Of a DNA stretch of 64,000 nt, positions 57,749 through 62,801 are shown one piece after another; the first letter of the stretch is position 1, and every line of letters begins with the position of its first letter. This stretch comes from Candidatus Bathyarchaeota archaeon. Its GTDB lineage: Archaea; Thermoproteota; Bathyarchaeia; Bathyarchaeales; Bathycorpusculaceae. The position numbers and the translations under genes were made by a program. The notes under the pieces are model-generated. The model was given only the letters and a program-made list of their open reading frames with translations. It did no database searches and was not told the origin of the DNA. The stretch lies in NCBI GenBank assembly GCA_026014545.1, contig JAOZIH010000001.1, positions 124,001-188,000 on the forward strand, read 5' to 3'.

Positions 57749-58024
57749 TTAGCCAGTTTTCTCGGCGTCGGAGATTATTTTAACCTGAGAATTCTTGCGT
57801 TTCCGCCATTTAAGTTGTCCGCCGATTTTTTCAACTAAACCCATCTTATGAAGAAGGGAAAGGCTTCGGTGAACTGAACTGTATTCTGGAGTTTTGTAAC
57901 GTACGTCTCTTGCCCATAAAATCACTGCAATATCCCTCGCGGTTAACTCTGGATATTTATCTAGAATCTCCAGAATTTTCCGCTGATTTTTGCTGAGGCG
58001 TTGACGCTTAGTCTTCTCAGCCAT
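57749..58024 (-). CDS. small winged-helix regulator
   Basis: A protein of 91 residues: SKNQRKILEILDKYPELTARDIAV, then YSSVHRSLSLLHKMGLVEKI with a short basic wing, a minimal MarR/PadR-like winged helix, with basic tail KWRKRKNS. No ligand domain or cysteine sensor. Divergently arranged to the prenyl-synthase-like gene. A palindrome at 59213-59229 in front of the MFS gene could be its site; that is a guess. Confidence 0.75.
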   Translation of the reverse strand: MAEKTKRQRLSKNQRKILEILDKYPELTARDIAVILWARDVRYKTPEYSSVHRSLSLLHKMGLVEKIGGQLKWRKRKNSQVKIISDAEKTG

Positions 58025-58145: not shown

Positions 58146-59132
58146 ATGCCGCCGAAAATGGGAAAGCGTATAGTTGCGGATCTCAAGAAAAGAAGCAAAA
58201 AAGGGCTCGAATATGCAAAACAGATATTGCAAGCAGAAAAAATAGACCATCCAAAACTGCGTGAGGCACTTGAACATTACCTTGCACATTGGGACGAATT
58301 CACGCATCCGGGTTTGTTCTCAATAGCATGCGAAGCCGTGGGAGGAGACCCAGATGACTTTGTGCCGACGCAAGCGGCAATAGCTATGATGGCGGCATCG
58401 CTTGATGTGCATGACGATATTATAGACAAATCTAAGGTGAAACACAAGGTTCCTACGGTTTATGGGAAGTTCGGCGCTGAAATGGCGCTTCTGCTCGGTA
58501 ACGCATTCCTAATAGAAGGCTTCAAACTTTTTGTTAATTCTACAGCAATGTTGCCAAAAGAAAAAGGAAAGATGGCACTTGAAACACTCAAGAAATTGTT
58601 GTTTGAGGTTGGCAATGCGCATGCCCTAGAAGTCGGCTTAAAGGAGAAAAAGGGCTTTTTTCCAGATGATTACATGAAGATTATGGAAATGAAGGCAGCA
58701 AGCCTCGAAGCAGACATGCACCTCGGTGCACTGTTTGGCGGCGGAGAAGCCGCTAAAGTTGAGGTCTTAGCAAAACTGGGAAGAACCCTTGGAATATTAG
58801 TTTTCCTTCGAGAAGAATTTATAGATGTTTTCGATATTGAAGAGCTTTGTCAACGAGTTGCTGTCCAAGACCTGCCTTTACCACTCTTGTTTGCAATGCA
58901 AGATCAAGAAGTTAAAGAAAAAATTGTGAATATAATCTCAAAACCCAAGATAACAAAAAGCGATGTTGCTGAGCTAGTTGATTTCACTCTCGAGGCCAAG
59001 CCTGTCGTAGAACTTAGAGGGAAAATGCAGCATCTAATAGAGAAAGGACTACTTTTAGCAAATAATTTCGCGAAGGCAGAGTTGTGGAATAGATTTAAAA
59101 CTCTTTTATCGTTTATGCTTGAAGACTTGTAG
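58146..59132 (+). CDS. polyprenyl synthetase-like protein with altered second Asp motif
   Basis: A protein of 328 residues of the all-helical prenyl synthase fold. The first Asp-rich motif is intact: HDDIID at about 89-94. The expected second motif (DDxxD) is replaced by REEFIDVFD at about 221-229, so Mg-diphosphate binding at that site is compromised. It may be a catalytically altered or regulatory subunit, or an enzyme with a different chemistry. Possibly works with lipid synthesis. ATG with no clear Shine-Dalgarno; TATA-like CTAAATCTTTTAAAC about 30 bases upstream suggests a near-leaderless transcript. Confidence 0.78.
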   Translation: MPPKMGKRIVADLKKRSKKGLEYAKQILQAEKIDHPKLREALEHYLAHWDEFTHPGLFSIACEAVGGDPDDFVPTQAAIAMMAASLDVHDDIIDKSKVKHKVPTVYGKFGAEMALLLGNAFLIEGFKLFVNSTAMLPKEKGKMALETLKKLLFEVGNAHALEVGLKEKKGFFPDDYMKIMEMKAASLEADMHLGALFGGGEAAKVEVLAKLGRTLGILVFLREEFIDVFDIEELCQRVAVQDLPLPLLFAMQDQEVKEKIVNIISKPKITKSDVAELVDFTLEAKPVVELRGKMQHLIEKGLLLANNFAKAELWNRFKTLLSFMLEDL

Positions 59133-59212
59133 CCTTCAACCCCATACTCGAACTGGCACGTCTTTCTTCTTTGCTCTCTTGGCCCTCATCCCTTATTCCC
59201 CTATGGTATTAG

Positions 59213-59229
59213 TGTAGAACATATCTACA
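59213..59229. promoter_or_regulatory. 6-bp inverted repeat, possible operator upstream of MFS gene
   Basis: TGTAGA (59213-59218) and TCTACA (59224-59229) are perfect inverted copies with a 5-base spacer, 3 to 8 bases from a TATA-like ATATAAGC. The position is about 90 bases before the MFS start, compatible with repression. Confidence 0.35.
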
Positions 59230-59314
59230 TATAAGCTTTTTGTTGAACAGAAATACAGAATGCTGCTTAACAATAGTTTTATCTTCAAAAACGCATTTAC
59301 TAATGAATTAAAGT

Positions 59315-60547
59315 ATGATTGGCATAAGAGCGCTTAGAGACAAAATTTCTTGGAAAACAACAGCGTCTTCCATTTTTCTAGTGTTTAACAGCTTCGTATG
59401 GTACCTGTTAACATACGCTATCTTTAATGTAATTGTAAATGGATTGCCTTTACCTGAGATAGAAAAAGTGGGTTTGTTCACTGCATATTTTGTTAGCATC
59501 ACGGTTTCGGCAGTAGTTGGGCCAAAGCTCTTCTTGCGTGCACGAGCCAGGTTTTTATATTTATGGGCATTCATAGGGGCAATTGCGACATTGCTTCTGG
59601 CTACGAGTTCTAGTAATAGCATATTAGTTAATACTTTGCTTGCCTTTTTTTTGGGCGCTTCGGTTGGAATAGGGTTACCTTCTTGTTTAAGTTATCTTGC
59701 CGATTCAACATATATCGAAAACCGCGGTCTTATAGGCGGGATAACATGGAGCGCCGTGGGATTCACTGTTTTAATTCTTGCTTTTTTAATAAGCATGCTT
59801 GGGCAATGGGAAACAATTATTGCAATAACAATTTGGCGACTTTTTGGCGGTGTCTGTTTTCCGGTTCTAAATAGAAAGCATGAGCAGCATGTTGCACAAA
59901 AATCACCCAACTATTTAGAACTTGTCCGCAAAAGAGAGATATTGCTTTACTTGTTTCCGTGGGTGATGTTTTCTCTTATAAATTTTGCAGAGGCGCCGAT
60001 GTTGGAAAGAGTCTTTAACACGATATTAGGCACAGATTTTTTTGCCTTTGTGCAACTTGCAGAGTTCGCTTTTATAGGAATTTTTGCGATTATAGGTGGT
60101 GTTATTGCTGATATTGTCGGAAGAAAACGAGTAGTTATTGCAGGCTTCGTCATGCTGGGTATTGAATACGCTGCAATGAGTGTCTTTTTTGACTCGCCTC
60201 TTACGTTATACTTGTTTTTAACATTGGACGGTATAACTTGGGGTTTGCTTTTTTCAGTCTTTTTCACAGCGCTCTGGGGGGATCTCGGTGAGAATTATGA
60301 AAAAGAAAAATACTATGTTTTGGGTGGGCTTCCTTATCTTCTTGCAAACTTTATGTACGTATTAATTAAACCCTATACTAGTGCTATTTCCCCAACAGCA
60401 GCTTTCTCTTTTGCAAGTTTCTTCCTTTTCTTAGCAGTCATTCCTCTGATGTATGCGCCTGAAACTTTGCCTGAAAAAACCATTAGAGAAAGAGAACTCA
60501 AGAATTACATTGAGAAGGCCAAAAAAGAAAAGGAAAAATACGCTTAA
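59315..60547 (+). CDS. major facilitator superfamily transporter
   Basis: A protein of 410 residues with about 12 hydrophobic segments in two halves. The loop between helices 8-9 has GGVIADIVGRKRV, the MFS loop motif (G-x-x-x-D-x-x-G-R-K/R). The N-terminal copy is degenerate. Substrate unknown. It ends 28 bases before the radical SAM gene, on the same strand, suggesting that it might export the product or import a substrate of that enzyme's pathway. Confidence 0.85.
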   Translation: MIGIRALRDKISWKTTASSIFLVFNSFVWYLLTYAIFNVIVNGLPLPEIEKVGLFTAYFVSITVSAVVGPKLFLRARARFLYLWAFIGAIATLLLATSSSNSILVNTLLAFFLGASVGIGLPSCLSYLADSTYIENRGLIGGITWSAVGFTVLILAFLISMLGQWETIIAITIWRLFGGVCFPVLNRKHEQHVAQKSPNYLELVRKREILLYLFPWVMFSLINFAEAPMLERVFNTILGTDFFAFVQLAEFAFIGIFAIIGGVIADIVGRKRVVIAGFVMLGIEYAAMSVFFDSPLTLYLFLTLDGITWGLLFSVFFTALWGDLGENYEKEKYYVLGGLPYLLANFMYVLIKPYTSAISPTAAFSFASFFLFLAVIPLMYAPETLPEKTIRERELKNYIEKAKKEKEKYA

Positions 60548-60575
60548 ATGAGTGTTCTCGCTTTAAGGGCAAAGC

Positions 60576-61697
60576 ATGTTCTTTCACGTGATGCTTACGA
60601 CGGAATGCAATTTGCAGTGCCGGTACTGCTTCGGCGAGGCAGTTGATGACTTTAGCGGTGACTTTGCAGATTTTGATGTGGACTATGATTTGCCCAGAAA
60701 AGCCGCTTATGACTTCGCTTTGTTGGCGGAGTTTTGCCGCAAAGACCCAGAATGCGTCTTGACTTTTTACGGTGGCGAACCGTTGCTCTGCGCTGACGCG
60801 ATCCGCCATATCATGAATTCTGCGAAGCCAAAGCATTTTATGATTCAAACGAACGGGGTGCTGCTTGACAGGCTGGAGCAGGAGTATGTTAACCGCTTCC
60901 ACACGATTCTGGTTTCCATAGACGGCGATGAAGCGCTAACTGACTACTACAGAGGCAAGGGCACGTTCCGCCGTGTCATCGATAACTTGCGGCTGATTAT
61001 ACAGAATGGCTTCCGCGGCGAATTAATTGCACGCATGACCGTTATGGAGCAAACAAACATTTACCGGCAAGTAACTTGGCTCTTAAATAACAGCGAGTTT
61101 CCGTTTTCTTCGGTTCATTGGCAGCTGAACGCGGGTTTCTGGGCAAACGATTACGCAAGGCGCAACTTCAAAGAGTGGAGCCAAACAAGCTACATGCCAG
61201 GCATAAAGCGGCTGGCGGAGTACTGGGTTGACTACATGAGAGAAAAGCACCGTGTACTACGGCTTTATCCGCTATTGGGAATTGCCCATTCGCTTCTGCA
61301 TAACGAGTCAAGTCTTCTCCGCTGCGGCGGCGGATGGATAAACTATGCCATACAAACTGATGGCACAATAATCCCATGTCCAACCATGTGGGGAATGAAG
61401 AAATACTATCTTGGCCACATAAGCCACACGAATCCGCTGGAGCTGAAGAAGATTTTTGTGGGCCCGCCATGCATCGAATGCGACATCTTTAGCGTCTGCG
61501 GCGGCCGCTGCTTGTACGCGAATGTAACCAGACGCTGGAGCAAAGAAGCATACGCCACGGTCTGCGACACTGTAAGAGGACTCGTAAACGCCGTAGCAAC
61601 AGAGCTTCCGCGAATCAGACAACTTATTGAGCAAAAGGCGATAAGCTTGGGCGATTTCGACTTCTTGAAATATAACGGCTGCGAGATAATCCCATAA
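60576..61697 (+). CDS. radical SAM/SPASM peptide-modifying enzyme (AF1577/CbpB-like)
   Basis: A protein of 373 residues. The N-terminal [4Fe-4S] motif CNLQCRYC (C11, C15, C18) binds SAM; GGEPLL follows at about 66-71. The C-terminal SPASM region has further cysteines in RCGGG, IIPCPTMWG and CIECDIFSVCGGRC with a last Cys near TVCDT, enough for one or two auxiliary clusters. The N-terminus MFFHVMLTTECNL and overall layout match an archaeal family named for AF1577, proposed to modify ribosomal peptides; assignment is from memory of the family. A 36-codon open frame starts 7 bases downstream. Confidence 0.85.
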   Translation: MFFHVMLTTECNLQCRYCFGEAVDDFSGDFADFDVDYDLPRKAAYDFALLAEFCRKDPECVLTFYGGEPLLCADAIRHIMNSAKPKHFMIQTNGVLLDRLEQEYVNRFHTILVSIDGDEALTDYYRGKGTFRRVIDNLRLIIQNGFRGELIARMTVMEQTNIYRQVTWLLNNSEFPFSSVHWQLNAGFWANDYARRNFKEWSQTSYMPGIKRLAEYWVDYMREKHRVLRLYPLLGIAHSLLHNESSLLRCGGGWINYAIQTDGTIIPCPTMWGMKKYYLGHISHTNPLELKKIFVGPPCIECDIFSVCGGRCLYANVTRRWSKEAYATVCDTVRGLVNAVATELPRIRQLIEQKAISLGDFDFLKYNGCEIIP

Positions 61698-61704
61698 ATT
61701 TTTA

Positions 61705-61815
61705 TTGCAGCCGCTAGAGGCTCTTTGGAACGGATATCCACCTGATAAATACTCTGAAGCTGGAGTGACCTATTATCGGAACATCGTTGGGCAGCGCCCT
61801 TTGATATTTTTTTAA
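61705..61815 (+). CDS. possible 36-residue peptide adjacent to the radical SAM enzyme
   Basis: TTG at 61705, TAA at 61813-61815, starting 7 bases after the radical SAM stop. It encodes a Tyr- and Pro-rich peptide with NGYPPDKYSEAG and VTYYRNIVG, without Cys. Immediate placement after a peptide-modifying enzyme makes it a candidate substrate. Against it: a TTG start, no clear Shine-Dalgarno, and no Gly-Gly leader. Confidence 0.3.
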   Translation: MQPLEALWNGYPPDKYSEAGVTYYRNIVGQRPLIFF

Positions 61816-62407: not shown

Positions 62408-62472
62408 AATATTGTAGAATCAACAATATGTCTGTAAATAGACATATTGTACACCTGTAGAACAAAAATACA
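62408..62472 (+). promoter_or_regulatory. dyad array and promoter element shared with the pilus operon
   Basis: Perfect 10-bp arms CAATATGTCT (62424-62433) and AGACATATTG (62440-62449) surround a 6-base spacer. A further ATATTGT lies at 62409-62415, so ATATTGT occurs forward, inverted (62423-62429) and forward (62444-62450). Downstream to 62472 the DNA resembles 12569-12602. Located 30-80 bases ahead of the small membrane gene at 62487. Confidence 0.5.
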
Positions 62473-62486
62473 AAAAGGTGAAAAAC

Positions 62487-62801
62487 ATGATAATGATAAT
62501 AGCCCTATCCGCAACATGGATCTCCTTCACAGGCTATCTAATATGGTATGTAGCAGTAGCCAAACACAATGTACCAATCACTCATGAAGAAGCAAAAACA
62601 TTATGGAAAATCCACAAAAAAACCACACACTGCAACGGCCACAAATGGCGCCCCATCCCGCTTCGAAACGGCAAAATAGCCGGTTTCGAATGCGAATGCG
62701 GCTACAAATACAGACAAACTCGACCAATAGTATCAAGCACCAGAAAAGATATTTATGCCACCTACAGGAACCAAGCAGGATTTCCGGTCACAACCTATTA
62801 A
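62487..62801 (+). CDS. membrane-anchored small protein with Cys/His element
   Basis: About 104 residues: an N-terminal membrane helix (IMIIALSATWISFTGYLIWYVAVA) and a soluble part with THCNGHKW and FECECGYKY, giving Cys and His ligands for a metal site. AAGGTG 6 bases before ATG 62487 decides the start (a GTG at 62478 lies in this site). Its codons are C-ending and G-poor compared with neighbours, as is the DNA near 12600, so it may have been acquired. Function unknown. Confidence 0.65.
   Translation: MIMIIALSATWISFTGYLIWYVAVAKHNVPITHEEAKTLWKIHKKTTHCNGHKWRPIPLRNGKIAGFECECGYKYRQTRPIVSSTRKDIYATYRNQAGFPVTTY

Follow-up and report, generated by a model that had tools for sequence, protein, structure and literature searches.

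Does the radical SAM/SPASM enzyme encoded at a locus of Bathyarchaeia act on a small peptide encoded beside it, and if not, which peptide gene belongs to this locus? Very little is known of peptide signalling or of the chemistry of ribosomal peptides in archaea; the Bathyarchaeia are an abundant and hardly cultivated group. The window, that is, the whole 64-kb stretch of DNA analysed here, comes from a Bathyarchaeia metagenome-assembled genome (1.86 Mb, 41 contigs, 98% complete). A first-pass annotation of the window had placed an MFS transporter gene at 59315-60547 and a radical SAM/SPASM gene at 60576-61697, with a gap of 28 bases between them, followed 7 bases past the radical SAM stop by a 36-codon frame that opens with TTG (61705-61815). 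All of these coordinates were found to be correct, and both protein identities stand: the transporter matches PF07690, and the enzyme matches TIGR04084 (rSAM_AF0577) with 306.7 bits (E = 1.7e-91), above the curated cut-off of 225 bits. The annotation had further proposed a modified-peptide cluster with the 36-codon frame as the precursor. As described below, a peptide-processing cluster is supported, through a 17-codon gene on the other strand, while the 36-codon precursor is refuted.

Gene order at the locus

For family-level counts we used the window's own family, f1. In f1 the gene order is retained: a polyprenyl-synthetase-like gene, the MFS gene and the radical SAM gene. The radical SAM gene has the MFS gene upstream in 30 of the 31 f1 loci, the one exception lying at a contig edge, and the enzyme co-occurs with the synthase-like/MFS pair (Fisher p = 8e-6). 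The pair is also found without an adjacent radical SAM gene, namely in genomes G041, G060, G049, G020, G039, G048 and G058.

The 36-codon frame behind the radical SAM gene

The Tyr-rich 36-codon frame on the plus strand (61705-61815) is open and lies 7 nt past the enzyme, and these two points speak for it as the precursor substrate of the radical SAM enzyme. Against this, no similar frame was found after the stop of 46 orthologous enzymes, and a search of 60 relatives returned only the window copy and chance matches. Its length is also that of chance. After dinucleotide shuffling of the 181-nt gap behind the radical SAM gene, 14.5% of the sequences had an equally long forward frame. The longest ATG frame of the gap has 15 codons. 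Of the 56 long ORFs in the window, 21 have a comparable frame within 40 nt of their stop. In addition, the TTG start falls in the flanking DNA on the 3' side of an integration site (see below). The first-pass annotation had itself let the proposal depend on conservation of the frame in relatives that have the enzyme, and in these it is unconserved. We therefore judge that the frame is no gene, and its being a precursor is improbable in the extreme. Reading the frame as a relic of an integrase C-terminus was likewise rejected, its local score being equalled by 104 of 500 shuffles.

A tiny gene on the opposite strand

When all small frames on both strands were clustered over the ortholog loci, a tiny frame surfaced between the synthase-like and MFS genes, on the strand opposite to both and in no annotation. 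In the window it occupies 59136-59189 of the minus strand (ATG at 59189, stop TGA), tail to tail with the polyprenyl-synthetase-like gene and 3 nt beyond the stop of the latter. Its DNA, from 59189 to 59136, reads ATGAGGGCC...GGGGTTGA, and its product is the 17-residue peptide MRAKRAKKKDVPVRVWG, with the tail VWG. Homologous frames in relatives encode MKKAKKRKVPVRYIIP, MRRKQKVPIRGWPAWGF, MKKPERKFRPIRRFWG, MKVRNRPKPIRPFPFTWW and MKKKSIRAVGGW, among others. It can be seen that the peptides of this family have 10-22 residues, with a K/R-rich head, a conserved (P)[V/I]R and a hypervariable tail.

In the first set of loci the tiny gene was present in 40 of 43 synthase/MFS pairs. From this set a strict rule was derived (opposite strand; stop at -30 to +70 nt from the synthase-like stop; 10-24 codons; a Shine-Dalgarno sequence; a basic head; an Arg and then 2-10 residues), and the rule was applied to 53 further loci obtained by a class-wide search. 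It was matched by 32 of the 53, or by 28 of the 49 that remained when near-repeats of the first set were taken out; as controls, 34 of 2120 shuffles (1.6%) and 13 of 577 3' ends of other genes (2.3%) matched. The resulting p-values, about 1e-37 against the shuffles and 1e-33 against the gene ends, overstate the independence of the loci because these are related. With the rule relaxed and the misses read by eye, about 12 more peptide genes were recognised, a matter of judgement in each case, with the Shine-Dalgarno sequence or the position outside the rule.

Codons and signals were then counted over 81 tiny genes for 80 different peptides. All six Arg codons occur at the conserved Arg and all four Pro codons at the Pro, and therefore the conservation is at the amino-acid level. 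Lys and Arg make up 42% of the heads and 5% of the tails. The tails, hypervariable and 2-11 residues long, contain Trp in 60 of the 81 peptides and any aromatic residue in 73; some end in GGW or GTW, and 21 are without Trp (for example VTG, AGP, ILG and IAP). The tails of the window's clade have just 2-4 residues and are often without aromatics. From the homologous frames, the codons and the signals, we are very nearly certain that the tiny peptide gene is real.

The tiny gene goes with the prenyl-synthase/MFS pair, also in genomes that lack the radical SAM enzyme or encode it at another place: most pairs without an adjacent radical SAM gene carry it (L183-L190). Since the gene is below ordinary annotation length limits, the whole peptide family may have been overlooked. 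A literature search covering open-licence papers gave no account of such a peptide family, which counts weakly towards novelty. A search for precursors is better extended to the entire conserved block on both strands than confined to the frame adjoining the radical SAM gene.

Promoter and predicted operators of the peptide gene

A Shine-Dalgarno-like AGGGG is located 8 nt upstream of the peptide start (59198-59202, minus strand). Such sequences are common across the loci, in 62 of 81 against 9.4 expected, a count that is partly built in because the Shine-Dalgarno sequence belonged to the strict rule by which some of the genes were found. That rule made no use of the TATA box, the palindrome or the codon usage. 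A TATA-box-like GCTTATATG is found at 59228-59236 (minus strand), and over the 81 loci TATA-like words are most frequent between -48 and -42 relative to the start codon. Between the TATA box and the peptide start lies a palindrome, the predicted operator TGTAGAACA (59213-59221), and a second predicted copy, TGTTGAACA, matches the palindrome upstream of the TATA box (59241-59249). The palindrome TGTWNWACA occurs no more than 50 nt from the start in 55 of the 81 loci, against 0.56 expected. In the window the two operators flank the TATA box with a 19-nt spacer, and the genome has no second pair with this spacing and a perfect match. These TGTWSWACA palindromes on either side of the TATA box would indicate a dedicated local control of the peptide gene, as in a pheromone or bacteriocin circuit.

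The only other TGTWSWACA of the 64-kb window is at 62456-62464, just upstream of a small gene (62478-62801), the 107-aa product of which has a hydrophobic segment at its N-terminus and a cluster of Cys and His residues. This gene could be in the same regulon as the peptide gene. In 13 relatives (L065-L080) a PadR-type regulator, assigned by eye, is encoded upstream of the synthase-like gene, and it is a candidate binder of the palindromes; in the window a different, winged-helix-like gene is present instead (57749-58024, minus strand).

The polyprenyl-synthetase-like protein and the MFS transporter

The gene at 58146-59132 (plus strand) encodes a divergent polyprenyl-synthetase-like protein of 328 aa, which we propose as a peptide prenyltransferase. 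It matches PF00348 (E = 1.1e-19), and NCBIfam synthase models score far below their cut-off. Its motifs were compared by alignment with the genome's own canonical synthase (contig C36). The first Asp-rich motif (FARM), DDIID, is kept. The IPP-binding GGKRxRP is lost, both in this protein and in the aligned family members, and the second Asp-rich motif reads R[D/E][E/D]xxD, in forms such as LREEFID and IRDEFID, compared with QMQDDILD in the canonical synthase. The Gln before the second motif is absent from the family as well, the position being F, T, A, L, S and similar. In short, GGKRxRP together with two Asp-rich motifs and the Gln is present in the C36 paralogue and missing from the 58146-59132 protein. 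The AF2 model (pLDDT 88) has the isoprenoid synthase fold with PhGGPPS as the best match; the Trp prenyltransferase Ord1 is at rank 16 by structure and also among the top profile matches.

Judged by these motifs, the protein would not be a canonical chain-elongating synthase. Because the first Asp-rich motif is kept and GGKRxRP is lost, a transferase with another acceptor is expected, and it is proposed that the protein works like the trans-IDS-like peptide prenyltransferases. We did not file it as a member of that group (ComQ, PalQ, ChrPC), since the Gln is absent and a quarter of the tails are without Trp. Another reading of the cluster, as one of lipid biosynthesis with a geranylgeranyl-reductase-like gene, was rejected, as that gene is present in three loci only.

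The MFS gene (59315-60547, plus strand) is the conserved partner of the prenyl-synthase-like gene and is transcribed divergently from the peptide gene. Its product, 410 aa and the proposed exporter, matches PF07690 with E = 1.5e-12 and has a conserved C-terminal tail, APETLPEKxIkeReLkxYxeKA.

The radical SAM/SPASM enzyme

The enzyme encoded at 60576-61697 (plus strand, 373 aa) is a member of TIGR04084 (AF1577/AF0577), which stands here behind a prenyl-synthase-like/MFS pair. Of 300 genomes sampled from the phylum, 138 have TIGR04084, nearly all of them in single copy, and among the controls it is also present in Sulfolobus acidocaldarius. The CxxxCxxC and six SPASM Cys are invariant in (nearly) all of 84 orthologs, and a seventh Cys is present in 77. 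With anSME and the PapB/CteB maturases the enzyme shares the radical SAM plus SPASM architecture; the closest fold to its AF2 model (pLDDT 79) is anSME, and CteB is the closest by sequence profile. Unlike CteB, however, it opens directly with the radical SAM core, without an N-terminal recognition domain. All 84 orthologs end exactly with E-[IVLA]-[IVM]-P-COOH, the Glu and the Pro being invariant, an ending that was noted here in TIGR04084 only, in the comparison with anSME and PapB/CteB. This suggests that the free C-terminus matters for structure or catalysis; the AF2 model gives no confident prediction of this end.

Outside f1, no neighbour gene of TIGR04084 was found to be conserved across the phylum. 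Small-ORF clustering over the TIGR04084 ortholog loci, those of other Thermoproteota included, gave no conserved peptide tied to the enzyme, and the idea of a RiPP-type precursor lying beside a radical SAM maturase was not borne out. A LeuRS gene is directly behind TIGR04084 in the distant loci L141 and L142 and further upstream in Bathyarchaeia; this adjacency was not taken as meaningful, and a phylum-wide operon partner was not found. Also set aside was a Gms-type lipid enzyme. Gms proteins exceed 420 aa and carry a helical domain at the N-terminus (PMC11186832), which the 373-aa protein does not have. In the literature searched, no published substrate for the TIGR04084 family was found.

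The 3' end of the enzyme gene

The 3' end of the TIGR04084 gene (61680-61722 in the window) is a recurrent integration site in relatives, and because of this the DNA downstream of the radical SAM gene is unconserved. In relatives a flank TTTTTATTGCAKCCG recurs, separating the enzyme stop from a convergent tyrosine integrase, and the stop of the integrase is usually 20-42 nt from that of the enzyme. The integrase is intact in G034 and G058 and is left as a C-terminal remnant in about a dozen others. The DNA of G034 and G058 is 89% identical over 4.5 kb, starting within the last codons of the enzyme gene. G058 has a second copy of the enzyme gene 3' end plus integrase tail 11.76 kb downstream, and G032 has a 20-bp copy of the 3' end 3.3 kb downstream. 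Both copies are direct repeats of the gene's final codons, placed at the far end of the elements. The window flank, ATTTTTATTGCAGCCGCTAGAGGCT (61698-61722), resembles the relatives' flank between the enzyme stop and the convergent integrase or remnant. No integrase remnant was recognised in the window flank, and from the flank alone we infer that an element may formerly have been present in the window itself. The convergent tyrosine recombinases at the TIGR04084 3' ends of L068, L077, L131/L182 and L132 are zinc-ribbon-bearing.

Comparison with ComQX and PalQX

ComQ and PalQ are trans-IDS-like Trp prenyltransferases in which the first motif is kept and the second is changed or repurposed for Trp; a Gln upstream of the second motif is the named Trp-recognition residue of ComQ, PalQ and Ord1, and PalQ prefers a terminal W, GW or GGW (PMC10853753, PMC13290415). 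As in ComQ/ComX of the Bacillus ComQXPA system, a trans-isoprenyl-diphosphate-synthase-like protein is encoded here beside a small gene for a hypervariable peptide, Trp is usually near the C-terminus, and the first Asp-rich motif is kept and the second altered. However, the peptide gene here is on the opposite strand, Trp is not universal, the host is archaeal, an MFS gene is present, a histidine kinase/response regulator was not found, and the Gln before the second motif is absent. ComX, at about 55-73 aa, is far longer than the peptides of 10-22 aa described here. In PalQ/PalX of Paenibacillus alvei, too, the trans-IDS-like enzyme is accompanied by a peptide whose core is aromatic and lies at the C-terminus; in sequence, the PalX core DNVRRFFW may be compared with PIRRFWG, KPMRIFFW and RAVGGW here. 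In contrast to PalX, the precursors here are far shorter, without an NHLP-type leader and in many cases with a residue other than Trp at the end, and the putative Trp-contact Gln is absent. The system would be remotely like ComQX or PalQX.

Proposed mechanism and alternatives

The cluster around the 17-residue gene looks like an archaeal peptide-signal or peptide-antibiotic system. From what was observed, namely the peptide gene, its conservation and signals, the gene order and the enzyme motifs, we infer a scheme of prenylation, cleavage, export and signalling. The precursor from the 17-codon minus-strand gene would have a K/R-rich head that ends in (P)[V/I]R, followed by a short hydrophobic tail. 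The synthase-like protein, with the allylic-diphosphate site kept and the IPP site lost, would transfer an isoprenoid onto the peptide; cleavage behind the conserved Arg may precede export; and the MFS protein would export the product, which, locally regulated, may be a signal or an antibiotic. In f1 the peptide may, or may not, also be a substrate of the radical SAM enzyme. The prenyl-transferase-like enzyme is the likeliest to act on it, because the peptide tracks the synthase/MFS pair without radical SAM; Trp prenylation cannot be universal, because about a quarter of the tails are without Trp. That the peptide is a processed precursor, prenylated by the synthase-like protein and exported by the MFS protein, seems to us to have somewhat less than an even chance. 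Held more tentatively is the wider reading, that Bathyarchaeia possess a new class of lipidated short-peptide signals, prenylated, MFS-exported and self-regulated via the paired palindromes, an archaeal counterpart of ComQX, with radical SAM tailoring possible in one family. No receptor gene for the peptide was identified. The peptide system is directly testable because it is strictly linked to a prenyl-transfer-like enzyme and an exporter, and about 80 distinct native peptide/enzyme pairs are now available.

Two other readings of the tiny gene have to be weighed against the processed and prenylated precursor. The 17-residue peptide might be a small toxin or a cationic, Trp-bearing antimicrobial peptide; the MFS protein would then export it or give immunity, and the synthase-like protein would lipidate it. 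The K/R-rich heads and aromatic tails, the hypervariability of these tails and the predicted operator control of the promoter fit this; yet the tails of the window's clade, short and often without aromatics, do not, and an immunity protein was not found. We consider this reading unlikely. Equally unlikely in our estimate is that the product is a small regulatory protein or a protein cofactor, whose partner could be the MFS protein or the synthase-like protein, and no processed precursor. A cofactor could explain the conserved basic head and (P)[V/I]R and the tight linkage with both genes, but a hypervariable, length-variable tail with conserved aromatic character would be unusual for it.

As for the radical SAM enzyme, it probably has an unlinked substrate, a conserved Thermoproteota protein or a small molecule, and in f1 would only be co-transcribed with the MFS gene. 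This is the more likely since the enzyme is phylum-wide without the peptide; its single copy without a conserved neighbour outside f1, its lack of a recognition domain and its anSME-like fold, that of a type of enzyme modifying proteins in trans, point the same way. Its regular position behind the MFS gene in f1 and its co-occurrence with the synthase-like/MFS pair argue against an unlinked substrate. A role of the enzyme in peptide maturation is made less likely by the loci (L183-L190) that keep the peptide while having the radical SAM gene at another place or not at all.

Two minor observations concern the sampled genomes. Contigs G003:C38 and G058:C7, from different families, share a 2.8-kb stretch that is 100% identical; one is probably a misbinned contig, and therefore horizontal transfer is not argued from this identical DNA. 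In G028 (L195 and L196; contigs C46 and C2) there are four synthase-like and six MFS copies, as if the module had multiplied.
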